Shown here piece by piece: positions 4,434 to 23,155 of a stretch of 23,155 bases of DNA. A model generated the notes under the pieces. The model saw nothing but the letters and a program-made list of their open reading frames with translations. It was not told the DNA's origin and made no database searches. This DNA is from a virus, in the IMG/VR virus record IMGVR_UViG_3300046002_002040, positions 1-23,155 of that record, one strand, 5' to 3'. The translations under genes were made by a program, and so were the position numbers. Position 1 is the stretch's first letter. Each line of letters opens with the position of its first letter.

Positions 4434-5837
4434 ATGCAAATCCCAATCCTCAACGGCATCTATGCCGACACCACTCCAGAGCTGCGCACGGCCTACCCGG
4501 TCAACATGGTGCCAGTGCCCAAGCAGTCCGGAATCAGCAACGGATTTCTGCGCCCTGGTGACGGCATCGTGGCCAACGGCACAGGCCCAGGCATTGACCG
4601 TGGCGGCATCAACTGGCAAGGTGTCTGCTATCGGGTCATGGGCACCAAGCTCGTGACCGTAAGCAGCAATGGCGCTGTGACCGTGCTGGGCGATGTCGGT
4701 GGTCCAGTCAACACGCTGGTGACGATGGACTACAGCTTCGACCGCTTGGCCATCGCATCCGGTGGTCGCCTGTACTACTGGAATGGCGTGCTCACCCAAG
4801 TGACAGACCCAGACCTCGGAGTCGTGCTGGATGTGGTTTGGGTGGATGGTTACTTCATGACCACCGACGGCGAGTTCCTAATCGTCACCGAGTTGAACGA
4901 TCCTACCCAGGTCAACCCCCTCAAATACGGAAGCTCAGAGGTAGACCCAGATCCAGTCGTGGCACTGCTCAAGCTCCGCAACGAAATCTACGCCCTCAAC
5001 AGCAACACCATCGAGGTGTTCGACAACGTGGGCGGAGAGCTGTTTCCATTCGCACGCATCGACGGCGCTCAAGTCCAAAAGGGCTGTCTAGGCACGCAGG
5101 CTTGCTGCGTCTACTTGGAGCGCATTGCTTTCCTTGGCGGTGGACGCAACGAAGCCCCAGGCATCTACATCGGTGCTGCGGCCACCACCCAGAAGATCAG
5201 CACACAGGAAATTGACAACCTGCTCCTGACCTACACAGAGGCGCAGCTGACTTTGGTCAAGCTCGAAGCACGCAACGACAAAAACCATCAGCACCTCTAC
5301 GTCCACTTGCCAGATCGCACAGTGGTCTATGACGCCTCAGCATCAGAAGCGCTTGGCGATCAAGTCTGGTTTACCCTCACCAGCACCACTGTTGGTTTCA
5401 GCCAATACCGCGCACGCAACATGGTCTGGATCTACGACAAGTGGCTGGTGGGAGACCCACAAAGCAGCGCCATCGGCTATCTGGTGCAAGACACCGGCCA
5501 CCATTGGGGCCAACAAGTACGCTGGGAATTCGGCACGATCATTGCCTACAACGAAGGCAACGGCGCGATTTTCAACCGCCTGGAGCTGGTCAGCTTGACC
5601 GGAAGCGTGGCATTGGGCACCAACCCACAGATCAGCACCAGCTACAGCGTGAACGGACTCTCATGGAGTCAGGATCGCAGCGTCGCAGTCGGCACCACAG
5701 GCAACACAGCCAAGCGCCTGGCGTGGTTTCAGCAGGGCCACATGCGCAACTGGCGCATACAGCGATTTCGTGGCGACAGTGACGCACACATCTCTTTCGC
5801 ACGCCTTGAGGCACAGATCGAGGCATTGGCATACTGA
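4434..5837 (+). CDS. Tail hub / packaged DNA stabilisation protein, P22 gp10-like
   Basis: 467 residues; P22 gp10 is 472. Shared pattern points are the N-terminal PILNGIYAD...AYPVNMVPVPK (P22 PVNMLATPKE), a FLRPGDGI segment, the CYRVMGTKLVTV strand, and a beta-propeller-like series (RLYYWNG, VVWVDGYFMTTDGEFLIVTE, NEIYALNSNTIEVFDNVG). Further shared points are QKGCLGTQACC (P22 VQKGIAGTYC), HLYVHLPDRTVVYDASASEA (P22 LLIIHLPRHVLVYDASSSQ) and the C-terminal R.WRIQRFRG. gp10 binds the gp4 ring and forms the hexameric hub to which tailspikes and the tail needle attach. Its stop overlaps the next start by one base (TGATG). Confident call. Confidence 0.93.
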   Translation: MQIPILNGIYADTTPELRTAYPVNMVPVPKQSGISNGFLRPGDGIVANGTGPGIDRGGINWQGVCYRVMGTKLVTVSSNGAVTVLGDVGGPVNTLVTMDYSFDRLAIASGGRLYYWNGVLTQVTDPDLGVVLDVVWVDGYFMTTDGEFLIVTELNDPTQVNPLKYGSSEVDPDPVVALLKLRNEIYALNSNTIEVFDNVGGELFPFARIDGAQVQKGCLGTQACCVYLERIAFLGGGRNEAPGIYIGAAATTQKISTQEIDNLLLTYTEAQLTLVKLEARNDKNHQHLYVHLPDRTVVYDASASEALGDQVWFTLTSTTVGFSQYRARNMVWIYDKWLVGDPQSSAIGYLVQDTGHHWGQQVRWEFGTIIAYNEGNGAIFNRLELVSLTGSVALGTNPQISTSYSVNGLSWSQDRSVAVGTTGNTAKRLAWFQQGHMRNWRIQRFRGDSDAHISFARLEAQIEALAY

Positions 5838-7066
5838 TGGCAACCGCACCCGTCTCCCGCAGGCTCAATCTGACCCGCGACCAGCTCGCGCAGTTCTTGA
5901 CCGACCAGCAACAGATCAGGCAGTTTGAACTGCTATTTGCGACAGTCGATCAGATCCAGGTCATCGTCGGAACTGATTTCGAGTACCAGGCAGACACAGC
6001 AGCGGCTACAGCAAACGAGGCTCTGGCCCAGATCAGCAGGCTTGCCCAGGCCTTAGAGTTGCTGGCTACAGCACCAGTCATCCAGAACAACAACTCGGTG
6101 GTGACTGATTACATCGACCTCAGCGAAAGCCCTGCACCAGTAAACAAAACCAGACGCCTGTCCTGGAACACCATAGACCAGACTGCCAACCTCGGCATGG
6201 AGTACGGCGTCACACAGCAGATCGGCCAAGAGATCTACGCCCGTGTCGGCAACACCACCGGAGTGACCATCCCCAATGGCACGGTCGTAGGCTTCGCAGG
6301 CGCAACAGCAAATGCCCTTCTTGTCGCGCCATATCTCGCAGATGGATCGCAGCCAACCCTCTACATCTTGGGCGTGATGACGCACGACCTGCCAGACAGC
6401 GGTGAGAAGGGTTACTGCACCACATGGGGCTTTGTGCGCGACCTGGACACCAGCTCGTTTGCTGTTGGTGACCTGCTTTACGCCAGCCCTACGGTGGCCG
6501 GAGAGCTGACAAACGTCAAGCCCACAGCCCCAGACAATGTGATCCCATTGGCTTCGTGCGTTACCTCAAACGCAACGACTGGCGTCATCTTCGTGCGCCC
6601 CACCATCACGCAGATGCAGTATTACGGTGTGTTCAGCAAGACCACAGACCAGACACCAGCGGCCATCAACACCGAATATTTGCTCACCTTCGACAGCGCA
6701 CAGATCAGCAACGGAGTTGTGATCGGCGGCACGACATCACAAATCATCGTCCCGCAGTCAGGTCTCTACAAGATCGACGCCACAGTGCAAATCACCAGCG
6801 GCAGCTCAAGCGCCAAGAACATCTGGGTTTGGTTTAAGAAGAACGGAACAGCCATCGCCAACAGCGCCAGGGTCATCACCTCAGATGTAAACAACGGCTA
6901 TGTGGCCATTGCCCTAACTGAGACCGTATCGCTGGCCGCCAACGAATACATCGAGATGGCCTTTGCCTCTGACAGCACCAACGTGACGGTGGACAATGTG
7001 GCCTCTACAGCATTCGCACCAGCAGCTCCGGCCATCATCTTGGCCGTTACTCAAGTTCAACAATAA
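5837..7066 (+). CDS. Virion structural protein with C1q/TNF-like C-terminal domain; sits in the gp26 tail-needle position
   Basis: 409 residues. Three parts are visible. The N-terminus (1-80) is helical with LTRDQLAQFLTDQQQIRQFE, followed by an A-rich helix. A middle all-beta region (about 95-255) contains YARVGNTTGVTIPNGTVVGF and a GDLLYASPTVAGELT turn, resembling beta-barrel modules of phage fibres. From about residue 260 comes a C1q/TNF-like jelly-roll pattern: NTEYLLTFDSAQISNGVVIG, then SGLYKIDATVQITSGSS, IWVWFKKNGTAIANSARVIT and SLAANEYIEMAFAS. Such jelly-rolls form trimeric knobs. In P22 the gene after 10 is 26, the trimeric tail needle, so a needle or plug analogue is a reasonable inference. 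A plain tail fibre is the alternative. It is translationally coupled to the gp10-like gene. Confidence 0.75.
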   Translation: MATAPVSRRLNLTRDQLAQFLTDQQQIRQFELLFATVDQIQVIVGTDFEYQADTAAATANEALAQISRLAQALELLATAPVIQNNNSVVTDYIDLSESPAPVNKTRRLSWNTIDQTANLGMEYGVTQQIGQEIYARVGNTTGVTIPNGTVVGFAGATANALLVAPYLADGSQPTLYILGVMTHDLPDSGEKGYCTTWGFVRDLDTSSFAVGDLLYASPTVAGELTNVKPTAPDNVIPLASCVTSNATTGVIFVRPTITQMQYYGVFSKTTDQTPAAINTEYLLTFDSAQISNGVVIGGTTSQIIVPQSGLYKIDATVQITSGSSSAKNIWVWFKKNGTAIANSARVITSDVNNGYVAIALTETVSLAANEYIEMAFASDSTNVTVDNVASTAFAPAAPAIILAVTQVQQ

Positions 7067-7822: not shown

Positions 7823-7846
7823 CGGTTCGTCAAAATGTGGGACAAT
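7819..7846 (+). promoter_or_regulatory. Candidate promoter with small dyad before the gp14-like gene
   Basis: TTGACG (7819-7824) and GACAAT (7841-7846) are spaced by 16 bases, matching 5 of 6 and 4 of 6 sigma-70 consensus positions. The -35 overlaps a perfect 5-bp dyad TGACG-GTT-CGTCA (7820-7832). It falls in the 78-base gap between the cysteine protein and ATG 7901, one of the longest gaps in the late operon. It is weak evidence because such matches arise by chance. Confidence 0.3.
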
Positions 7847-7900
7847 CTGGCCGCTGAGTCACCAAAGCCGCCAGCAGCTTGCCCTAAACAGGAGTTGCAC

Positions 7901-8353
7901 ATGTCGGTCGTCACTGAGGGAATCACAAAAGGCCATCTTCTTGAGGTCTATTCTGATCCGTACATCACCAAAGTCGGACACGACCACCGACCAGCCGCGC
8001 ACATCGACCACCCTCTCGTCACCTATTTGTCTGCATGGACTGGCAACACCTTTGCTGGTGCATTCATAGCGGTACGATTCACCCCCATTGAAATCGAGCT
8101 GCACGCCCTTCTCAAGAGGTCGGCCATCAAGCACTCGCGTGCTCTCGGCATAGCCTGCTTACAGTGGGCATTTGCCCAGCCCATTCAGCGCGTCACCGCC
8201 TACATCATTGAGGGCTTGGAGATGGCCAAAAACTACTGTCTCAAGCTCGGATTCAAAGAAGAAGGCCGCAGACGCGCAGCGTGTATGCAAGGCGGCATTG
8301 TTAAAGACGTTTATGTGCTGGGCATGACCCGGCTGGATTGGAGTTCAAGATGA
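7901..8353 (+). CDS. P22 gp14-like, acetyltransferase-fold protein
   Basis: 150 residues from ATG 7901, chosen because AGGAG (7890-7894) lies 6 bases upstream; an in-frame ATG at 7835 has no such site. The order of segments fits a GNAT-like fold: TWLSA-like strand LVTYLSAWTGNTFAGAFIAV, PIEIELHALLKRSAIKHSRA (strand plus long helix), a second helix LGIACLQWAFAQ, strand VTAYIIEG and NYCLKLGFKEEGRRRAAC. The KxLGFxxEGxxR ending is typical of N-acetyltransferases. P22 gp14, a minor head protein, belongs to a family of this type and lies just before gene 7 as here. No clear acetyl-CoA loop (RxxGxG/A) is visible, so catalysis is doubtful. The stop overlaps the gp7-like start (ATGA). Confidence 0.65.
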   Translation: MSVVTEGITKGHLLEVYSDPYITKVGHDHRPAAHIDHPLVTYLSAWTGNTFAGAFIAVRFTPIEIELHALLKRSAIKHSRALGIACLQWAFAQPIQRVTAYIIEGLEMAKNYCLKLGFKEEGRRRAACMQGGIVKDVYVLGMTRLDWSSR

Positions 8354-9201
8354 GTTTTATTGGTGATTTTCTTGGTGACACGATTGGCGGCATCACTGGA
8401 GCAAAGCAAGCCGGTGAAGCAGCAGAACGTGCTGGGCAAACTCAAGCGGCAGCAGCAGAAAAAGGCATAGAAGAACAGCGCAGACAGTTTGATGCGCTGG
8501 TCGAGCTGATGGCTCCTTATGTCACAGCTGGAACTGGAGCAATGGGCCAACAGCAAGCCCTGATCGGTTTGCAAGGTGCCGAAGCTCAAAAGCAAGCCAT
8601 ACAAGGTTTTGAGCAATCGCCACTGTTCCAGTCTCTTATGCAGCAAGGCGAGAATGCAATTCTCCAAAACGCATCGGCTACTGGCGGTCTGCGCGGCGGA
8701 AACGTACAAGCGGCATTGGCACAGTTCCGTCCCCAGGCACTTAACTCTCTAATTGAGCAACAATATGGACGCCTTGGAGGGCTGTCGACGATGGGGCAAG
8801 CATCCGCAGCAGGGCAAGCCTCATCTGGAATGCAGTCTGCCAGCAATATCGGCAACCTCTTGGCCAACCAGGGCGCAGCCTTGGCTGGCGGCATTATGGG
8901 ACAAGGCGGCATCGCACGCCAGACATTTGGTGATGTTCTCAACATTGCAAAAACAGCAGCACAAATGGCTGGCGCTGGTGGAGGCGGTGGAGGCGGTGGA
9001 AGTATGTTTAGTGACCGTCGTCTCAAGAAAAACATCAAGCAAATTGGAACACGCGCCGACGGTCTAAACGTCTATGAGTTCGATTACATCTGGGGCGGCG
9101 GACGTCAAGTTGGCCTGATGGCCCAAGAAGTCCAGGCCATCTACCCGAGCGCTGTTTCAGAATCTGGCGGCTACCTCATGGTCGATTACAGCAAGGTTTA
9201 A
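8350..9201 (+). CDS. P22 gp7-like DNA ejection protein with C-terminal S74 chaperone domain
   Basis: 283 residues. Residues 1-205 are A/G/Q-rich and helical with small-residue repeats (FLGDTIGGITGAKQAGEAAE, QNASATGGLRGGNVQAALAQ), as in gp7-type ejection proteins that leave the virion ahead of the DNA. Eight consecutive Gly (210-217) form a linker. Then comes an S74 (endosialidase intramolecular chaperone) domain starting at Ser221: SDRRLKKNI, with Ser and Lys five residues apart as in the known Ser-Lys self-cleaving dyad, then VGLMAQEVQAIYPSAV and VDYSKV. The domain stops right after VDYS, without the usual C-terminal helix. Cleavage before Ser221 would release 63 residues. GGAG lies 6 bases before ATG 8350. 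First of three ejection genes. Confidence 0.85.
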   Translation: MSFIGDFLGDTIGGITGAKQAGEAAERAGQTQAAAAEKGIEEQRRQFDALVELMAPYVTAGTGAMGQQQALIGLQGAEAQKQAIQGFEQSPLFQSLMQQGENAILQNASATGGLRGGNVQAALAQFRPQALNSLIEQQYGRLGGLSTMGQASAAGQASSGMQSASNIGNLLANQGAALAGGIMGQGGIARQTFGDVLNIAKTAAQMAGAGGGGGGGGSMFSDRRLKKNIKQIGTRADGLNVYEFDYIWGGGRQVGLMAQEVQAIYPSAVSESGGYLMVDYSKV

Positions 9202-9205
9202 AAAC

Positions 9206-10693
9206 ATGGCAATCAATCCATTACAAGCGCCCGTCAATTACATGGCCATGACTCCCCAGGTGGACTTGGGGAAATCATTTTCTGAGCTTGGCCAAGTTTT
9301 AGCGCAACGCCAACAGCAGCAACAAGCGCAAGAAGTCAAACAGCAATTTGCCAATGACTTGCAAGCGGCACAGACAGATGGCTCTCAAAAAGCATGGCTT
9401 GGCATGATCGCCAAGTACCCGCAATTCCGTGAAGCCTTTGGCGATGTCCGCAAAGGAGTGGGCGAAGAACGCGTAAACAATGAATTTACTCAGGGCTTTG
9501 AAATTTCTAACGCCCTAGAAAATAACGCACCAGAGGTAGCGACACAGCGCGTAGAAACCATCATTGCTGCAAAAAAGAACGCAGGCGAACCGACCAAGAT
9601 TTATGAAGATGTTTTGACAGCACTTCAAAACGGCAACATTAAAGGCGCTCAGGCTGGTGTTAACTTTGCGTTAACAGCAATTGACCCTGATCGCTTTGAA
9701 AAATCGGTTAAGGCAAAGACAACAGCAACCAAAGCGCCTGAGGAGTTACGAGCAGCCGTAGCAGCCGCAGACAAAGCCGTGGCAGACGCCACTACAGCGC
9801 AAGCCACAGCCACCAATGCAGCCGAAAGAGCAAAAGCTGATGCAGACAAAGCAGTGGCAGACGCACAAAAAGCAAAAGTGCAGGCCCAGTATGCTGAAAA
9901 AGTCGAGCTGGCTGGTTTGGAGAAAACGGGCTGGGATGTCAAAAATCTGAAAAGCCAGATCGGTGATCGTGCTGCACGTTTGAATTTGGATCAACAGACA
10001 ACAGCCGCAACGGTGGCGGAAAAATTGTCCGGCATTCAAAAGAATCTGAACGACATCCCATCTGACACTCGCAAACTGATCAACGAGTCCGCTACTTTGG
10101 CAGCGACCTCCAGGCAGTCTGCCGACCAGTTCAACGACCTAGCCAAACGCCTCGACGCATCTGGCGGTGGTTACGGCGTGTTCTCCAGCGCATCCGACTT
10201 CTTGAAGAAGGGAGCAGGCTTCCAGGGCGGCATGACGCAACTGCGTCAAGAATACACACGCCTTCGCAACACGGCGGCCATTAAGTCCTTGCCACCAGGC
10301 CCAGCCACAGACAAAGACATCGCCATGGCCTTGAAGGGCTTTCCAAGCGACAACGCATCTGCCACAGACCTGTCGGCCTTCCTGCGCGGCATGGCCAAGC
10401 TGCAAGACGTTGACGCCTCCATCAACAACGCCAAAACAGACTGGCTTGCCCAAAACAACGGCACGCTTACACGCGCCAAAAACACATTTGTTGCTGGCGA
10501 CTATTCCACCAAGCCCGGCGAGACCTTCAACGACTTTGCCCAGCGCATCGTTGGCGATGTCTCCAAACGCTACGACCCAACGCAGCAGACCAGCCTGGTG
10601 AATCAGATCCCAACTGATCGAAATCCACGACCAGCAGCTCCAGCGGCAAACATCCGGTCGCAAGCTGACGCAATCCTGCGCGGAGGTCAATAA
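9206..10693 (+). CDS. P22 gp20-like DNA ejection protein
   Basis: 495 residues; P22 gp20 is 471. It starts four bases after the gp7-like gene. The N-terminus (MAINPLQAPVNYM, then a Q-rich helix RQQQQQAQEVKQQFANDLQA) is followed by an aaa-rich helical region, a long A/K/D coiled coil at about 175-235 with two copies of ADKAVADA, a helical middle (DLAKRLDASGGGYGVFSSAS) and a C-terminal globular part rich in N, T and P. There are no transmembrane segments or enzymes visible. Ejection proteins of this type pass into the cell and help form the channel for DNA. The call rests on order (after gp7, before gp16), size and composition more than on residue identity. Base composition changes within the gene, AT-rich first and GC-rich after about 10020. 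Confidence 0.8.
   Translation: MAINPLQAPVNYMAMTPQVDLGKSFSELGQVLAQRQQQQQAQEVKQQFANDLQAAQTDGSQKAWLGMIAKYPQFREAFGDVRKGVGEERVNNEFTQGFEISNALENNAPEVATQRVETIIAAKKNAGEPTKIYEDVLTALQNGNIKGAQAGVNFALTAIDPDRFEKSVKAKTTATKAPEELRAAVAAADKAVADATTAQATATNAAERAKADADKAVADAQKAKVQAQYAEKVELAGLEKTGWDVKNLKSQIGDRAARLNLDQQTTAATVAEKLSGIQKNLNDIPSDTRKLINESATLAATSRQSADQFNDLAKRLDASGGGYGVFSSASDFLKKGAGFQGGMTQLRQEYTRLRNTAAIKSLPPGPATDKDIAMALKGFPSDNASATDLSAFLRGMAKLQDVDASINNAKTDWLAQNNGTLTRAKNTFVAGDYSTKPGETFNDFAQRIVGDVSKRYDPTQQTSLVNQIPTDRNPRPAAPAANIRSQADAILRGGQ
9766..9864 (+). repeat. Near-identical 23-base direct repeat in the gp20-like gene
   Basis: Copies at 9766-9788 and 9842-9864 differ at one base and both encode ADKAVADA inside the coiled-coil region. 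The 76-base spacing is not a multiple of three times the repeat, but both are read in the same frame relative to their own codons only if the offset is 76 bases, so the shared peptide shows ADKAVADA in the first and DADKAVADA context in the second. It looks like an old internal duplication of a helical repeat. Confidence 0.5.
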
Positions 10694-12628
10694 ATGGCAA
10701 CAGCCGACGAATACGCAGCCTGGATCGTCAAGAATTCCGCCAAGCGCGGAACGCCTGAGTTCGACACCGTGGCGCAGGCCTACCAGCTCGCCAAGGCAGA
10801 AGAAAACACGGCCACCTTCCAGCAGCAGAACGCACCAGCACCACAGCAGCCAGGCGTGATGGATCAGATCGTAGGAGCTGGCGAAACAGCCCTAACCCTT
10901 GGCACTGGCGCAGTCGGTGGCACGCTTGGCACACTGGCCGGAACTCTCCAGGGCTTGTCCCAGCAGATCCTATCCGGTCAGTTCGGCACGCCAGAAGCCA
11001 TGCGTGCAGTCGAACAAGCCGCAGCAAAAGGCGCACAGGCGCTCACCTACCAGCCACGCACTCAAGCTGGCCAAGAGCAGGTGCAAGCCGTGGGCCAAGT
11101 CCTGGCCAACGTCCTGCCACCAGTCCTGCCTGCAATCGCAGCCCCAGGCGCTGTCATGCAAGCAGCACGCACAGCAGCCCCAACAGTTGGCGCAGCCCGT
11201 CAGATCGGAACAGCAGCAGGCCAGCGTGCGGCTACAGCAACAGGCCAAGCCATCGCAAGGCCAGTGCAAGCGGCCACCACAGCCGTGCGCGAGACCTTGG
11301 GCATGGAGACCCCAGCCGTGGCCACCACAGCTCCAGCAGCAGCCGGTGCGCGTGTCTCAGGCGGTGCAGCAGCCACCCCAGAAGCCATACGACGCGCTAC
11401 CACAGCGGAAAGCCTGCCAGTGCCAGTCACCCTCACCAAAGGCGCGGCCACCAGGGACGCACAGCAGCTGGCCTTCGAGAAGGAACAGATCAAGAGCGAT
11501 CTGGGTGGACCACTTCGCCAGCGTGCCGAGGAAAACAACCTGCAAGCCTTGCAGAACTTCGACGCCTTGGTCGATATGACAGACGCCCAGCTCATGGACT
11601 TGTCCAGCACCGGCGGCGCTGTCGTTAAGTCTTTGACCGAAGGCCTCACAGCAGCCAAGAACAGGACTCGCGCCGCCTACAAAGCAGCCGAGAAAGCTGG
11701 CGAGTTGGAAAGCAACGTCACCCTCAACTCGGTGGTGGACTACATCAACGAGAACATCCCAGAGGGCGACCTGGCCCCGGTACTCAAGGCAGCCCAGCAG
11801 AAGGCCATCGCAATTGGTGCAGCAGTCCCAGACGCCGACGGCAGACTGGTGGCCCAGCCCATCACACTGCGCCAGGCCGAAAGCCTGCGCCAGACCTTCC
11901 AGCGTGCAGGCTTCGAGGGTGCAGACCAATTCCACGGCGGCAGCCTGCGTCGCGTCTTTGACGTTGAGACCGAAGGCATGGGCGGAGACCTCTACAAAAA
12001 GGCCCGTCAGACCCGCATCGACCAAGCACGCAAGTTTGAGAATCGCGCCATCGTTGCCCGTCTCATCAAGAACCGCAAAGGCATGGAAGATCCCCAGGTC
12101 GCAGCCGACCAGGTTTTCCGCAAGTCCGTGTTGAACTCCTCACCAGAGGAAATCACGTTCTTGAAGCGCGTCTTGGTCACCAGCGGAAAAGATGGCCAGC
12201 AGGCTTGGAAAGAGCTGCAAGGGGCCACCGTGCGCCACCTCAGAGACGAGGCCACCAAGGGCATGGGCATGGACTCACAAGACCGCCCCATGATCTCTCC
12301 AGCCAAGCTGCACCAGTCCGTGCAGGCTCTCGACGCCAATGGCCGCTTGGATGTGCTTCTCGGCAAGAAAAACGCACAGACAGTGCGCGATCTTGACGAC
12401 GTTGTGCGCTACGTCACCACAGTGCCACCAGGCACACTGGTCAACAGCTCAGGCACAGCAGGAACGCTCATGGCAGCCATCGCAGAAGCCGGTGCTACAG
12501 GAGCACTCACAGGCCTGCCATTGCCAGTGGCCTCTGGCCTGCGCCAGATCATCAAGATGCGCCAGGAAGGGCGTACCAAGGCCAGAATCAATGACGCACT
12601 CAACGCATTGCCACCCGTGCAGCCTTGA
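10694..12628 (+). CDS. P22 gp16-like DNA ejection protein
   Basis: 644 residues; P22 gp16 is 609. The N-terminus EYAAWIVKNSAKRGTPEFDT carries the short W(I/L)V.N..K.GTPEF..V..AY motif that is frequent at the start of large phage internal proteins. Residues 65-110 are G/A/T-rich and amphipathic (GAGETALTLGTGAVGGTLGT), and 140-230 is alanine-rich, possibly membrane-interacting. The C-terminal 400 residues are helical and charged (EKEQIKSDLGGPLRQRAEEN; AESLRQTFQRAGFEGADQFH). In P22, gp16 is needed for DNA entry and can act on membranes. GGAGG (10682-10686) lies 7 bases before the ATG, and the start follows the previous stop directly. It is third in the 7-20-16 order, which supports the call. Confidence 0.85.
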   Translation: MATADEYAAWIVKNSAKRGTPEFDTVAQAYQLAKAEENTATFQQQNAPAPQQPGVMDQIVGAGETALTLGTGAVGGTLGTLAGTLQGLSQQILSGQFGTPEAMRAVEQAAAKGAQALTYQPRTQAGQEQVQAVGQVLANVLPPVLPAIAAPGAVMQAARTAAPTVGAARQIGTAAGQRAATATGQAIARPVQAATTAVRETLGMETPAVATTAPAAAGARVSGGAAATPEAIRRATTAESLPVPVTLTKGAATRDAQQLAFEKEQIKSDLGGPLRQRAEENNLQALQNFDALVDMTDAQLMDLSSTGGAVVKSLTEGLTAAKNRTRAAYKAAEKAGELESNVTLNSVVDYINENIPEGDLAPVLKAAQQKAIAIGAAVPDADGRLVAQPITLRQAESLRQTFQRAGFEGADQFHGGSLRRVFDVETEGMGGDLYKKARQTRIDQARKFENRAIVARLIKNRKGMEDPQVAADQVFRKSVLNSSPEEITFLKRVLVTSGKDGQQAWKELQGATVRHLRDEATKGMGMDSQDRPMISPAKLHQSVQALDANGRLDVLLGKKNAQTVRDLDDVVRYVTTVPPGTLVNSSGTAGTLMAAIAEAGATGALTGLPLPVASGLRQIIKMRQEGRTKARINDALNALPPVQP

Positions 12629-12659: not shown

Positions 12660-14270
12660 ATGTCCGCACTCAGCATCCAGCCAACCTTCCCGATCTTTAC
12701 CGAGACGGACGGCTTGCCATTGGAGAACGGTTACATCTGGATTGGCGCGGCCAACCTCGACCCCCAAGGCAACCCCATCAACGTGTATTGGGATGCAGCC
12801 CTGACCATCCAGGCAGCCCAGCCCATCCGCACCCTAAACGGCTACCCATCACGCAACGGCACACCTGCTCGCCTGTACGTCAATAGCGACTACAGCATCC
12901 GAGTGCAGAACAGCAAGGGCAGCATGGTCTACAGCTCGCCGACTGCAACAGAGCGCTACAACGAAGCCGTAGTGACTGGAGTTGATGCGAATGATGTCTC
13001 TTTCAAACAGGCTGGGATTGGTGCAATCACCATCACTGCTCAAGAATTCTTTGAGGACTTCATCAACGTAAAACAGTTCGGCGCTGTTGGTGATGGACTT
13101 GCTGATGACAGTACGCCTTTCACAGACACCGTAAATCAAGCTCAAATTGCCGGGGTCACAGCAGTTGTACCTAACGGCACATACAAAATTTTGGATGCCG
13201 GTGGATTTCCATCTCAAAACAATGCAATCACGCCAGTGAATATTTTGGCTGGTGCAGACGTTGAATTCACCGGCACTGTGGTTCAAGGAAATGATGATTC
13301 TGTACCGTGCTTTGGTCACTCAAAGACCAACTGGTACAACCTCATGAACTACAACTACATGTACTCTGCACCTGGGTACGCATGGGAAGACCCGAATATT
13401 CCCGGCGTGTACCCGTTTGGCTCTATGACTTTGATTGTGGAATGCGAGCCAAAAACAACATTTAAAGGAAACGCAGACGCGTGTTTCTTTGGTTTCCGTG
13501 GCAAATCTGGTGGCAATTTTGCAGGCGGTGCGGTTAACTTTTTATCGGAACTTCAGTCTGGTTTTCTTGGCAATGCAAACATTTGCGAGTTTGACATCAA
13601 TAACTTTGCAGCTGACGGCAAAGGCCTTGGTATTACCATCATTGGAATTGGTACACACAAGCCTGAAGTTGCTCAAAAGATTGCACGTATCCAATACGGA
13701 AACCAATCTCCAACAGGAGTTGGTGGCAACTGGATTCCACCATACCAGTACGGCATTCAAATCTACAACGCTGAAAATGGCTTGTATATTGACCAGCAGC
13801 AAGTTGAAAACCCACTTGCGGCAATTGGTGTGAATCCGGGTCTGCAAGCCGACCCGGTGCAATATGCTTTTTACATCAACGACCCGTTCAGCACACGCAA
13901 ATTTGGTGTCCAAAATAACGGTTACATCAAACCTCGTGATGAAGCACCGTTTTCTGTTTTTGGCACCAATGTTGTTGCGCAACTAACCGCTGGGCAAAAC
14001 CCGTCGATGTATTTGATGCCCGATGGGTGGGTGCGATTGGCTGGGCAGATTCTGGCAAGTGTTGGTACAACGGTTGCACCGGGAGCAACGCTGATCACCC
14101 TTGACGCAGCGTTCCGACCAAACCGAACCCTTTATCTGCCGATCGTCAACTCTGCGGGAACGCTTGGCAGCGTTACGATTGCATCGTCTGGTGTGATTAC
14201 TTCAAGCATCACTTTGACAGACTCCACTTGGTTGTCACTCGATGCTGTGTCTTTCAAACTCAACAATTGA
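12660..14270 (+). CDS. Tailspike: P22-type head-binding domain plus beta-helix
   Basis: 536 residues. Residues 1-100 match the P22 tailspike head-binding domain: PTFPIFTETDGLPLENGYIW, IGAANLDPQGNPINVYWD, AAQPIRTL and the strand pair LYVNSDYSIRVQNSKGSMVY. This domain attaches the trimer to the gp4/gp10 hub. At about 135-180 the sequence INVKQFGAVGDGLADDSTPF is the usual entry of a pectate-lyase-type right-handed beta-helix, followed by beta-helix-like turns to about residue 440. The last 90 residues (DGWVRLAGQILASVGTTVAP; AAFRPNRTLYLPI; TWLSLDAVSFKLNN) form a separate beta domain of a type found at fibre ends. It should bind or degrade a surface polysaccharide, but no active-site acid pair can be assigned. 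The body is more AT-rich than the head-binding part, a sign of module exchange. Confidence 0.88.
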   Translation: MSALSIQPTFPIFTETDGLPLENGYIWIGAANLDPQGNPINVYWDAALTIQAAQPIRTLNGYPSRNGTPARLYVNSDYSIRVQNSKGSMVYSSPTATERYNEAVVTGVDANDVSFKQAGIGAITITAQEFFEDFINVKQFGAVGDGLADDSTPFTDTVNQAQIAGVTAVVPNGTYKILDAGGFPSQNNAITPVNILAGADVEFTGTVVQGNDDSVPCFGHSKTNWYNLMNYNYMYSAPGYAWEDPNIPGVYPFGSMTLIVECEPKTTFKGNADACFFGFRGKSGGNFAGGAVNFLSELQSGFLGNANICEFDINNFAADGKGLGITIIGIGTHKPEVAQKIARIQYGNQSPTGVGGNWIPPYQYGIQIYNAENGLYIDQQQVENPLAAIGVNPGLQADPVQYAFYINDPFSTRKFGVQNNGYIKPRDEAPFSVFGTNVVAQLTAGQNPSMYLMPDGWVRLAGQILASVGTTVAPGATLITLDAAFRPNRTLYLPIVNSAGTLGSVTIASSGVITSSITLTDSTWLSLDAVSFKLNN

Positions 14271-14283
14271 AGAGGTATCAAAT

Positions 14284-15189
14284 ATGCTTAAAACTGTATC
14301 TAGTATTGCCAATGCAATTGGAGCATTGAACTATAAGGGCGCTTGGAATGCTAACACTAACACGCCAACTCTGGCTTCGGGAGTTGGTGCAAAAGGGGAT
14401 TATTACGTTGTAAGTGTTGGGGGAACAACCAGCATTGATGGCGTTGCTCTTTGGGGTGTTGGCGACATGATCGCCTTCAACGGCTCAGCGTGGCAGCGCA
14501 TTGATGGTGGCGTTGATGGAAACTTTGTGGAAATCTCTGCCAGCGGAGACGTCAAGCTGACAACAGCAGGCAAGGGCATCTATGGAACTGTTGCCCTGAT
14601 TCTTGGTGTCGGAACATCAGAATATGGACGGTTTGACTCATCTGGACGTTTGCTGCTGAATGACGTCGCGTCCAATGGAGATGGAACACTTGAGACGGTG
14701 GCAAGGAACAACTCAAGCAACGCGCTTGTGGCTCGAAGCAAATCATCTGGCGACGTAGGAAACGCCGTGCTGTTGGTCTCCAAGTTCGACAACGACAGCA
14801 GCACCAGTCAAGTTTTCCAACGATACACGATCAACAACAATGGTGCGGCCAGTGGCCAGGTTAACGCCAATGGTGCAGGCCAGGTTGCGTTCGGCTCTTG
14901 GTCTGATGAAAGACTCAAAGAAAACATTGCTGATCTTGAGCCGCAACTTCAAAATATTTGCGCACTTCGACCCGTTGAATTTGATTACAAAGTTGGTGGG
15001 CATCAAATAGGATTTATTGCTCAGGATGTGCAAAAAGTCTACCCAGACTTGGTTGGACAAGACAGCGAAGGAATGCTGACGGTATCTGGTTTGAGCAAAA
15101 CAGAGGCAAGATTGGTCAGTGCCATCAAAGAGCAACAGAAAATAATCTATCAACTTGCAGAGCGCATTGCTTTGCTTGAATCAAAATAA
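14284..15189 (+). CDS. Tail fibre with C-terminal S74 self-cleaving chaperone
   Basis: 301 residues. The N-terminal region has the common fibre module NYKGAWNANTNTPTLASGVG, then KGDYYVVSVGGTTSIDGVAL, WGVGDMIAFNGSAWQRIDGG. A beta-rich shaft follows (RFDSSGRLLLNDVASNGDGT). The S74 domain starts at Ser207 with SDERLKENI (Ser and Lys five residues apart, as in the known dyad), then PVEFDYKVGGHQIGFIAQDV, VYPDLV and a long C-terminal helix SKTEARLVSAIKEQQKIIYQ. The chaperone is expected to trimerise the shaft and cleave itself off, leaving about 206 residues. ATG 14284 has AGAGG 8 bases upstream; an in-frame ATG at 14242 lies inside the tailspike gene and is not needed. It is likely a second receptor-binding protein. 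Confidence 0.88.
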   Translation: MLKTVSSIANAIGALNYKGAWNANTNTPTLASGVGAKGDYYVVSVGGTTSIDGVALWGVGDMIAFNGSAWQRIDGGVDGNFVEISASGDVKLTTAGKGIYGTVALILGVGTSEYGRFDSSGRLLLNDVASNGDGTLETVARNNSSNALVARSKSSGDVGNAVLLVSKFDNDSSTSQVFQRYTINNNGAASGQVNANGAGQVAFGSWSDERLKENIADLEPQLQNICALRPVEFDYKVGGHQIGFIAQDVQKVYPDLVGQDSEGMLTVSGLSKTEARLVSAIKEQQKIIYQLAERIALLESK

Positions 15190-20846: not shown

Positions 20847-21203
20847 TTACTCCAAATTTTTAATGGTTACAAAGGCCTGAATCTGCCCTTTTGCAGCCTC
20901 AGCACCTTTGCACACTTTAACACAATAACCCACTTCTTCGAGGTATTTGATCCAGTCCTTTTGCTCGGCACTGACCGTGCCACCCTTCGTGCGCTTCATC
21001 TCCAGCCACAGCCCCCAGGCAGGCACGAACAGATCAGGCACACCAGAGGAAACGCCCTCGGCTTTCAGACGGCCAGCCGTGGCAGGGCTTCGCGCACCAC
21101 CGTTCGGGATGGCAAAGATCCGCACCCCTTTGTACGTCTGGCGAAACCAGCGCACCACCTCACGCTGCTCCTCATGCTCGGTGGGTATGCGCTCGGCGGT
21201 CAA
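20847..21203 (-). CDS. Stand-alone VRR-NUC nuclease
   Basis: 118 residues from TTG 21203, which overlaps the previous stop (TTGA) and has AAGAGG 7 bases upstream; no ATG or GTG fits. The PD-(D/E)xK site of VRR-NUC is present: SGVPD57LFVPAWGLWLE68MK70, followed by KGGTVSAEQKDWI. An N-terminal HEEQREVVRWF helix and IPNGGARSPATAGRLKAEG complete the family pattern, and GYCVKVCKGAEAA is the last strand-helix. Phage VRR-NUC proteins are thought to cut branched or looped DNA, as in resolving replication or packaging intermediates. Full family length for the single-domain form. It sits in the operon with the SF2 helicase, so joint work on DNA is likely. Confidence 0.88.
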   Translation of the reverse strand: MTAERIPTEHEEQREVVRWFRQTYKGVRIFAIPNGGARSPATAGRLKAEGVSSGVPDLFVPAWGLWLEMKRTKGGTVSAEQKDWIKYLEEVGYCVKVCKGAEAAKGQIQAFVTIKNLE

Positions 21204-21394
21204 AACGGCACCTCTTGCATCCACTTCTGGCACTCGCCCACAGCCTCGGCAAACTCTGCTGGTGGCTTCATGAAGAACTCCACACACATCCCATCGTGGC
21301 CATAGTTCTCGCAGGTATGGCAGCAGCGTGGTGGCCCAGCACGATCCCACTCGCGCCACTGGACCAGGAACTCAGGTTCGGGTGGCCTGCTCAT
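21200..21394 (-). CDS. Small Cys-rich zinc-binding phage protein
   Basis: 64 residues from ATG 21394, with AAGGGG 6 bases upstream and a 4-base overlap with the previous stop. After a W-rich start (RPPEPEFLVQWREWDRAGPP) comes RCCHTCENYGHDGMCVEFFM, then KPPAEFAEAVGECQKWMQEV. Cysteines in the order CC..C, C, C with the aromatic residues around them suggest one zinc or Fe-S site. Proteins with the CHTCE.Y..DG.C..F...PP..FA....C..W pattern are often found just before VRR-NUC genes in phages. The role is unknown. A longer frame up to 21490 overlaps the preceding small gene and is not needed. Confidence 0.78.
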   Translation of the reverse strand: MSRPPEPEFLVQWREWDRAGPPRCCHTCENYGHDGMCVEFFMKPPAEFAEAVGECQKWMQEVPF

Positions 21395-21537
21395 TTCAGA
21401 CCCCTTTGCATTGCCTTCACCCAGCACCTGGCGCAGTGCCACTTCGAACGCAGCTCGACACCGCCCCTCGGCTCCTTGGCCACCTTGCACAGATCACACA
21501 TGCGCAGCTTCTGCGCCTTCACCAGTTCGTCAATCAT
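21391..21537 (-). CDS. 48-residue zinc-finger protein
   Basis: MIDELVKAQKLRMCDLCKVA, then KEPRGGVELRSKWHCARCWV, KAMQRGLK. Two CxxC pairs (CDLC and CARC, 20 residues apart) make a classic four-Cys zinc knuckle or treble-clef core, on a basic background. AAAGGAG lies 6 bases before ATG 21537, which overlaps the helicase stop (ATGA); the stop overlaps the next ATG. It is below common length limits and was found by reading the interval. Nucleic-acid or protein binding is likely, as for other phage proteins of this kind. Confidence 0.8.
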   Translation of the reverse strand: MIDELVKAQKLRMCDLCKVAKEPRGGVELRSKWHCARCWVKAMQRGLK

Positions 21538-23126
21538 TCCCAGCTCCTTTTCATCACTCTAAAAAATTTCCCGTCTTTGCGATACTCGATCAGCTTCGGC
21601 GGCGTGGCGTTGTTCATGTTCTGCACCATGTCAATCATGGCTTGCACTTTCAGGCCACCAGGCGCAATGCTGGCGCTGTTCGCAATACTCAGCAGCAGGC
21701 CCATCGCCCTCTGGCCAGCGTAACCCTCGTGCATGATCGGCAAGTATTCAGTGATCGGCGGCTCACTCAGCCCACCGTAATACGTCACCGCCAGCATCTC
21801 AATGCCAGAGGCCTTGCTGATGTGCTTGCGCCACGCCCAGCTGCTCACCTCCAGCTCTTGGCCCTCCAGCCCCATGATGTCGTCATTGCGCAACACCATC
21901 GCCTTCTTGACAGGCTCAGGGAACTGCTCACCGCACGACGGGCAGGTCATCACCGAGATATACACCAGCTCCCCACAGTGGTCGCACACCTTCACTGGCG
22001 CTTCGCCCTCACCATCGCTGCTCGACTTCTTCGGCGGCTGCACATTGGTGATCGGGCCGTGTGTCTCCACCACGCCAGCAAAGTCCAGCACCAGGCAGTG
22101 ATCGGTGTGGCTCTTGACCCTCATTCCCCTGCCGGCCATCTGCACATAAAGGCTGGCGCTCATCGTAGGGCGCAGCATGGCCACCAGGTCGATGTCTGGA
22201 TAGTCAAAGCCAGTCGTCAGCACATTGGCGTTGGTCAGCGCGCGCAGTCGGCCAGCCTTGAAGTCGGTCAGGATGCGCTCGCGCTCCTTCTTCGGCGTGT
22301 CACCAGTCACACACTCAGCGGCCACCCCCTGCTGGCGCAGGGCTTCGGCCACGTGCTGCGCGTGCTGCACACCAGCACAGAAGAACAGCCACGCCTTGCG
22401 CTCTCCAGCCAGGGCCACCACCTCGCGCACCACAGCCTGATTCTTGTCGTCCGTATCCACAGCAGCTTGCAGCTCAGACTCGATGAACTCGCCCCCGCGC
22501 TTCTTCACACCAGTGACATCCAGCTTGGCCTTGGTGATCTTCGAGCGCAGCGTGGACAGATACCCCTTAAACACCAGCTCCTCGATGCTCACAGGCGTCA
22601 GCAGATCATCAAACATCGCAGGCTTGTCGGTTATCAGGCCATGCCCCAAGCGGTACGGCGTGGCCGTCAGGCCAATCACGCGCAGGCTCGGATTGATTGC
22701 CTTCAACTCGGCCAGCAGCTTGCGATAACCGCCCTCGTCTTTGTGGTTGACCAAGTGGCACTCGTCAATGATCACCAGGTCGATATGCCCCAGCTCTCGC
22801 GCCTTGCTCCGCACCGACTGAATGCCAGCAAACGTGATCGGCTCCCCCAAGTCCTTGCGGCCAATGCTCGCGCTGTAGATCCCCATCGGCGCCCCAGGCC
22901 AGTGCTGGCGCATCTTCTCAGCGTTTTGCTCGATCAGCTCCTTGACATGGGTCAGCATCAAGACACGGGTTTCAGGCCAGTTCTGCAAAGCATCCTTGCA
23001 CAGCGCGGCCACAATGTGCGACTTGCCAGATCCGGTCGGCAGCACCAGGCATGGGTTGCCCAGGCTACCAGCCTCGAACCAGGCATACAGCTGATCGATG
23101 GTGCGCTGTTGGTATTCACGCAGCAT
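21534..23126 (-). CDS. SF2 DEAD/DEAH-type helicase with C-terminal zinc ribbon
   Basis: 530 residues from ATG 23126. Helicase motifs in order: N-terminal LREYQQRTIDQL (Q-tip-like), Walker A PTGSGKS (30-36), motif Ia LTHVKELIEQ, motif II DECH (121-124), motif III LTATP (153-157), motif IV-V NANVLTTGFDYP, motif VI QMAGRGMR (329-336). A four-Cys zinc ribbon follows (CDHC at 381-384, CPSC at 395-398), then about 120 residues of unknown fold. The layout is that of the phage SF2 helicases related to type III restriction subunits and to RecG/UvsW-like enzymes. It should move on DNA with ATP and serve in replication or recombination. The start overlaps an upstream stop (TGATG). It is the first full gene of this operon in the window. 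Confidence 0.93.
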   Translation of the reverse strand: MLREYQQRTIDQLYAWFEAGSLGNPCLVLPTGSGKSHIVAALCKDALQNWPETRVLMLTHVKELIEQNAEKMRQHWPGAPMGIYSASIGRKDLGEPITFAGIQSVRSKARELGHIDLVIIDECHLVNHKDEGGYRKLLAELKAINPSLRVIGLTATPYRLGHGLITDKPAMFDDLLTPVSIEELVFKGYLSTLRSKITKAKLDVTGVKKRGGEFIESELQAAVDTDDKNQAVVREVVALAGERKAWLFFCAGVQHAQHVAEALRQQGVAAECVTGDTPKKERERILTDFKAGRLRALTNANVLTTGFDYPDIDLVAMLRPTMSASLYVQMAGRGMRVKSHTDHCLVLDFAGVVETHGPITNVQPPKKSSSDGEGEAPVKVCDHCGELVYISVMTCPSCGEQFPEPVKKAMVLRNDDIMGLEGQELEVSSWAWRKHISKASGIEMLAVTYYGGLSEPPITEYLPIMHEGYAGQRAMGLLLSIANSASIAPGGLKVQAMIDMVQNMNNATPPKLIEYRKDGKFFRVMKRSWE

Positions 23127-23155
23127 CAACCCACCACCCTTCCGCCAAACTGCTT
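23126..23155 (-). CDS. C-terminal tail of an upstream gene (partial)
   Basis: The - strand is open from the right edge and ends in KQFGGRVVG and then TGA (23128-23126), overlapping the helicase ATG by one base (TGATG). Nine residues are too few to name the protein. The tight overlap matches the other joints of this operon, so a real coding tail is likely. Confidence 0.45.
   Translation of the reverse strand, partial: KQFGGRVVG

Follow-up and report, generated by a model that had tools for sequence, protein, structure and literature searches.

Why does a chaperone domain of the self-cleaving kind known from phage fibres stand at the end of a DNA ejection protein, and what would its removal leave behind? 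The question is raised by an open reading frame of 283 amino acids at 8350–9201 (+) of an IMG/VR virus fragment, the whole 23,155 bases of which are called the window here. Residues 23–208 matched PF25688 (P22_gp7, 41.2 bits, cut-off 28), and residues 221–269 matched PF13884 (Peptidase_S74, 45.8 bits, cut-off 22, E 7.6e-12), both above the curated cut-offs, as a sequence-only reading of this DNA had proposed when it placed an S74 domain on a gp7-like protein. The protein also matched PHROG 598 ‘DNA ejection’ (1.7e-41). A frameshift or chance reading frame was ruled out by near-identical genes on independent contigs (L003–L007) and by purifying selection on the domain.

The genes of the window run P22_CoatProtein, P22_Tail-4, Phage_stabilise, gp14-like, gp7, gp20-like, which is the coat-4-10-...-14-7-20 order expected of a gp7 gene; the order in P22 is 14-7-20-16. 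Upstream lies a gp14-like/acetyltransferase protein (7835..8353, +; PHROG 651, head morphogenesis, 2.3e-8). Directly downstream is a gp20-like ejection protein (9206..10693, +), which matched PHROG 917 ‘released from the phage upon host infection’ (7.6e-12), a label also borne by P22 gp20. A 644-amino acid protein (10694..12628, +) was assigned to the gp16 place by position, Pfam and PHROG searches having given no confident family match for it. Homology suggests that the gp7-like protein is packaged in the virion and ejected. Elsewhere in the window, a 409-amino acid protein (5837–7066) sits between the gp10-like and gp14-like genes; its residues 269–383 weakly matched BclA_C, of the trimeric jelly-roll type, and it may be a tail needle or fibre. 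On the opposite strand, a ResIII/DEAD helicase with a zinc ribbon (21534–23129, −) adjoins a VRR-NUC nuclease (20847–21359, −), forming a replication-type pair.

A short S74 domain with an intact dyad

In the window protein eight glycines are followed by SMF|SDRRLK, and the short S74, or intramolecular chaperone, domain occupies the 63 residues from Ser221 to Val283 (9010..9198, +). Its Ser-Lys dyad is intact (Ser221/Lys226), in agreement with the sequence-only reading, and has the same S+5 spacing as S587/K592 of MYRF and S911/K916 of endoNF (PMC8326128). The Ser, Asp, Arg, and Lys of SDxRLK were invariant in 41/41 S74-bearing gp7-like proteins, in which the codons of the dyad and of the Phe before it vary synonymously: AGC, AGT, and TCC are all used for the serine, and both codons for Phe and for Lys. 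The median pairwise dN/dS of the S74 module was 0.056, indicating strong purifying selection. In a profile alignment the aromatic pair F244/Y246 aligned with MYRF Y615/Y617, and both residues are invariant in the close family.

AlphaFold2 modeled the module with a pLDDT of about 90 from Ser221 onward. A profile of the short S74 class matched the solved S74 domains 6f45, 7dc3 (the MYRF ICA), 8jov, and 3gud. Structural comparison by VIA-align placed 7dc3 in the top row, as a weak match (Z 3.7, rmsd 2.4, 56 residues) that stops where the MYRF helix begins. A Foldseek search of the PDB with the module model gave no match at E ≤ 0.001, and a single-sequence search of the PDB with the window protein returned chance matches alone. 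The full-length AlphaFold2 model (pTM 0.35) was too poor for a fold search; in this low-confidence model the part upstream of the S74 domain, which is P22 gp7-like, is predicted to be helical, and a triple beta-helix or stalk is absent.

The window chain stops 4–5 residues past the last strand, and the C-terminal trimerising helix, which had been described as lacking, is therefore indeed absent. With the S74 domains of endoNF and of the phage T5 and GA-1 fibres (PF13884) the window domain shares its sequence family, SDxRLK, the dyad, and, as predicted, the core strands and hairpins; in contrast, those domains end trimeric beta fibres and have an upstream triple beta-helix and a C-terminal helix, neither of which is found in the ejection protein, predicted to be helical. 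The residue ahead of the cut also differs, being Ser/Thr in the fibres and Phe in the window protein. MYRF resembles the window protein in that it, too, is no fibre yet bears a domain of the self-cleaving S74 type. It differs in its alpha4 trimerising helix and its upstream beta-helical stalk, and its cleavage frees a transcription factor from the membrane. The same phage also encodes a tail fibre (14242..15189, +) with a standard long S74 domain (PF13884, 60.7 bits, placed at 14902–15054), so that two variants of the domain are present in one phage, as had been noted. The S74 serine of the fibre is residue 221, is preceded by Trp, and is followed by about 95 residues, the C-terminal helix included.

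The residue before the predicted cut

Viral contigs searched with the window protein yielded matches to gp7-like or S74 sequence at 79 loci, the S74 domain being present in some and absent in others. The set was widened and de-duplicated to 41 gp7-like proteins with the domain and 198 without it. Phe preceded the catalytic Ser in 39/41 distinct S74-bearing proteins (8/10 clusters at 70% identity), the exceptions being L376 (Val) and PAE2 (Leu). Positions −2 to −4 were variable, and the Phe was encoded by both TTT and TTC. Phe was also the last residue of 138/198 of the gp7-like proteins that have no S74 domain (62/93 clusters at 70% identity; about 30% end otherwise), compared to a background of 22/471 long plus-strand reading frames from the same loci (Fisher’s exact test p = 5e-70, which is overstated because the sequences counted are kin and not independent). 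The cluster counts are the safer evidence, together with L370 and AH02, whose S74 domains belong to different subtypes and are likewise preceded by Phe. A second sample was picked by a gp7 core DNA motif alone, blind to S74 and irrespective of how close the sequences are to the window; in it 63/105 S74-less gp7-like proteins had a C-terminal Phe.

P22 gp7 and Sf6 gp11 are in the same family (PF25688) as the window protein and share with it the 14-7-20 order and the C-terminal Phe of its predicted mature form. They differ from it in having no S74 domain, and P22 gp7 also in having its N-terminus trimmed by a host protease, according to its database record. The two proteins end GLLGSLF and GLLSSLF, respectively, with the stop directly after SLF. 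A C-terminal Phe independent of S74 was thus seen in P22 gp7 (L306:4370-5059), in Sf6 gp11 (L314:3561-4253), and in many prophage gp7-like proteins. In a gp7-like branch from Burkholderiaceae prophages (L101, L103, L104, and L105), which forms a long branch on the tree, the C-termini are ...YFTGT, GGSV, or SSWV instead. The C-termini of T7 gp14 and epsilon15 gp14 have no terminal Phe, and the feature is therefore not general to all short-tailed phages.

These comparisons place the predicted scissile bond at Phe220|Ser221 (codons TTT AGT, 9007..9012, +), where S74-less relatives have TTY followed by a stop. A cut before Ser221 releasing 63 residues, as first proposed, thus gains strong, if indirect, support from the Phe junction. 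The predicted mature ejection protein would comprise residues 1–220 (8350..9009, +) and end GGGGGGGGSMF; its length of 220 equals the median for S74-bearing relatives, against 217 for those that have no S74 domain. The idea that cleavage would leave a glycine-rich end was not upheld: the end would be Phe. The Gly-rich linker (residues 209–218, 8974..9003, +) varies in length in the protein and DNA junction alignments, and the eight glycines were rejected as a functional end, as they are not conserved and are absent in L007 (...KTVAQF|SDRRLK).

One alternative is that Phe at −1 is the P1 substrate preference of this S74 lineage, travelling with the module and unrelated to the gp7 C-terminus. 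Most S74-bearing gp7 modules do form one close lineage. On the S74 side, a control set was collected with a DNA pattern for SDxRLK that is blind to the preceding codon. Among long fibre-type S74 domains, Phe at −1 was found in 0/85 (43 had Ser and 21 Thr), so a Phe at this position is not characteristic of S74 domains at large. The short terminal domains in this set (n = 23) extend 63–80 residues from Ser to the end of the protein and mostly follow hydrophobic, Gly/Ala-rich tails such as internal proteins usually have; the pattern also returned five internal S74 domains. Within the short class, Phe occupied −1 more often than any other residue (7/23), as the substrate-preference explanation would have it, but these domains also accept Ala (4), Leu (4), Gly (3), and others, among them Thr, Val, and Ile. 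Two further points count against this explanation, namely that gp7 proteins without any S74 domain, P22 gp7 included, end in Phe, and that the distinct subtypes of L370 and AH02 follow Phe as well. We consider it unlikely.

Presence and absence of the module in close relatives

In DNA alignments of two sets of close relatives, both flanks were homologous and the 63-codon module was either present or absent, inserted precisely where the Phe codon would otherwise meet the stop. L007 reads ...gca caa ttt AGC gac..., whereas L107 and L109 read ...gca tcg ttt TAA. The same presence and absence was seen between L010/L017/L065 and L178/L182/L176, with a few variable codons ahead of the Phe. Mapping the presence of S74 onto a tree of 151 gp7 cores required 7 changes on the best tree, and well-supported branches forced at least 3 of these; the tree was quick and unrooted, so these changes are counted as gains or losses alike. 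A tblastn match that overran the stop in L053 and L054 pointed to a possible read-through S74 remnant, but none was present past the stop, where the next gene begins.

The exact junction bears on a second alternative, in which the domain stays uncleaved in the virion, serving in its structure or in docking to the portal, and the dyad is conserved for the fold alone. The prediction of a well-folded domain and the absence of the trimerising helix needed for MYRF-like cleavage are both in its favor. It does not account for a module that starts at the scissile bond, directly after the residue with which S74-less proteins end, and the invariance of Ser and Lys (41/41) despite synonymous changes also speaks against it. 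This reading seems to us distinctly improbable.

In a third alternative the domain does no more than help the ejection protein to fold or oligomerise, and cleavage is an incidental clean-up. In fibres and in MYRF the domain drives trimerisation of the part upstream of it (PMC8326128), and P22 gp7, at about 12 copies per virion (PMC4992974), assembles in multiples. Yet about 95% of gp7-like proteins do without the domain, a close sister of the window protein (L013, 82% identity) among them, and the part missing from the window domain is precisely the trimerising helix. This role is possible but doubtful. The 95% comes from the motif-picked sample, in which S74 was found in 5/110 complete distinct sequences; fusions of S74 to gp7-like proteins, whose frequency the sequence-only reading had suggested checking, are thus not rare (about 5%).

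A probable removable, self-cleaving cap

Our preferred explanation, which is probable on the sequence evidence, takes the 63-residue S74 domain for a removable C-terminal cap that cleaves itself off a P22 gp7-type ejection protein and leaves a C-terminal Phe. That a cut at Phe220|Ser221 would restore the normal C-terminus of the gp7 family strongly supports such a cap, and cleavage by the window domain is itself strongly supported, though indirectly. The gp7-type protein would fold and its copies would be brought together before the cut. Ser221, activated by Lys226, would then cut the Phe220–Ser221 bond, releasing the S74 domain and leaving a mature protein with the same Phe end that most gp7 proteins get straight from translation. 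Until the subunits meet, the domain probably shields this end, or delays activity or assembly.

In MYRF and endoNF an identical dyad cuts at the corresponding position; in MYRF, S587 and K592 are essential and Y615/Y617 position the cut (PMC8326128). The active hole of MYRF is threaded by the chain of a neighboring subunit, and its C-terminal helix wraps the trimer (PMC8326128). Cleavage there requires the trimer because the cleaved chain belongs to a neighboring subunit. The absence of a MYRF-like helix in the window domain, and an upstream protein predicted to be helical and not a triple beta-helix, count against a cap, as do the exceptions at −1 (L376 and PAE2), the roughly 30% of S74-less relatives with another last residue, the C-terminus of T7 gp14, and the possibility that the Phe goes with the module and not with gp7. 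If the route is the same, gp7 itself must bring the subunits together, and its assembly would take the place of the helix. In P22, gp7, with the copy number given above, appears to be the protein chiefly responsible for binding the portal barrel (PMC4992974), which makes assembly plausible as the trigger. In a review, gp7 and T7 gp14 are classed together as forming the channel's outer-membrane section (PMC8954989), and masking of a hydrophobic Phe end before assembly would therefore be a reasonable purpose.

The sequence-only reading had treated S74 on an ejection protein as exceptional. Short S74 domains are instead common on ejection-type proteins and already annotated there. AH02 (a Pseudomonas phage), PAE2, H6/1, and RHph_I3_18 each have a protein in the gp7 position that ends in a short S74 domain, with Phe, Leu, Met, and Trp at −1, respectively, and an upstream part distantly related to the window protein. 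These are annotated as intramolecular chaperone, ejection, or S74 structural proteins (‘intamolecular chaperon’ in AH02; ‘putative ejection protein, pfam13884’ in H6/1), and PHROGs includes families that end in an S74-type domain and bear the label virion structural protein or DNA ejection protein. A search of open-licence papers found no report of S74 with an ejection or internal virion protein, nor any mention of a conserved C-terminal Phe of gp7 proteins, P22 included. Two points appear to be new: the terminal Phe as such, and the fact that the predicted scissile bond falls precisely where gp7 proteins natively end.

S74 domains also occur inside larger proteins. In L311:3176-6733 (MW202675, annotated internal virion protein D) the domain occupies residues 277–327 of 1185 and is followed by a lytic transglycosylase (SLT, 601–694); cutting by this domain, if it occurs, would divide an ejection-protein polyprotein. 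L276:3475-8208 resembles this arrangement, with a sub-threshold SLT match. In L201:3-3842 (−) and L221:1-2373 (−) there are two S74 domains per large protein, and hundreds of residues follow the first.

More speculatively, short helix-less S74 domains may be a distinct class of assembly-sensing caps that hide a C-terminal aromatic anchor, freed by self-cleavage only on gp7-type assembly, and that would split an ejection polyprotein in the lytic transglycosylase fusions of related phages.

Ejection proteins of the P22 type must stay inert in the capsid and later build a channel. A natural self-cleaving cap, recently gained or lost, alongside uncapped sisters at 82% identity, would offer a direct test of how ejection proteins are held back. 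Our results also suggest that many records named after tail fibres due to an S74 domain may be ejection proteins.
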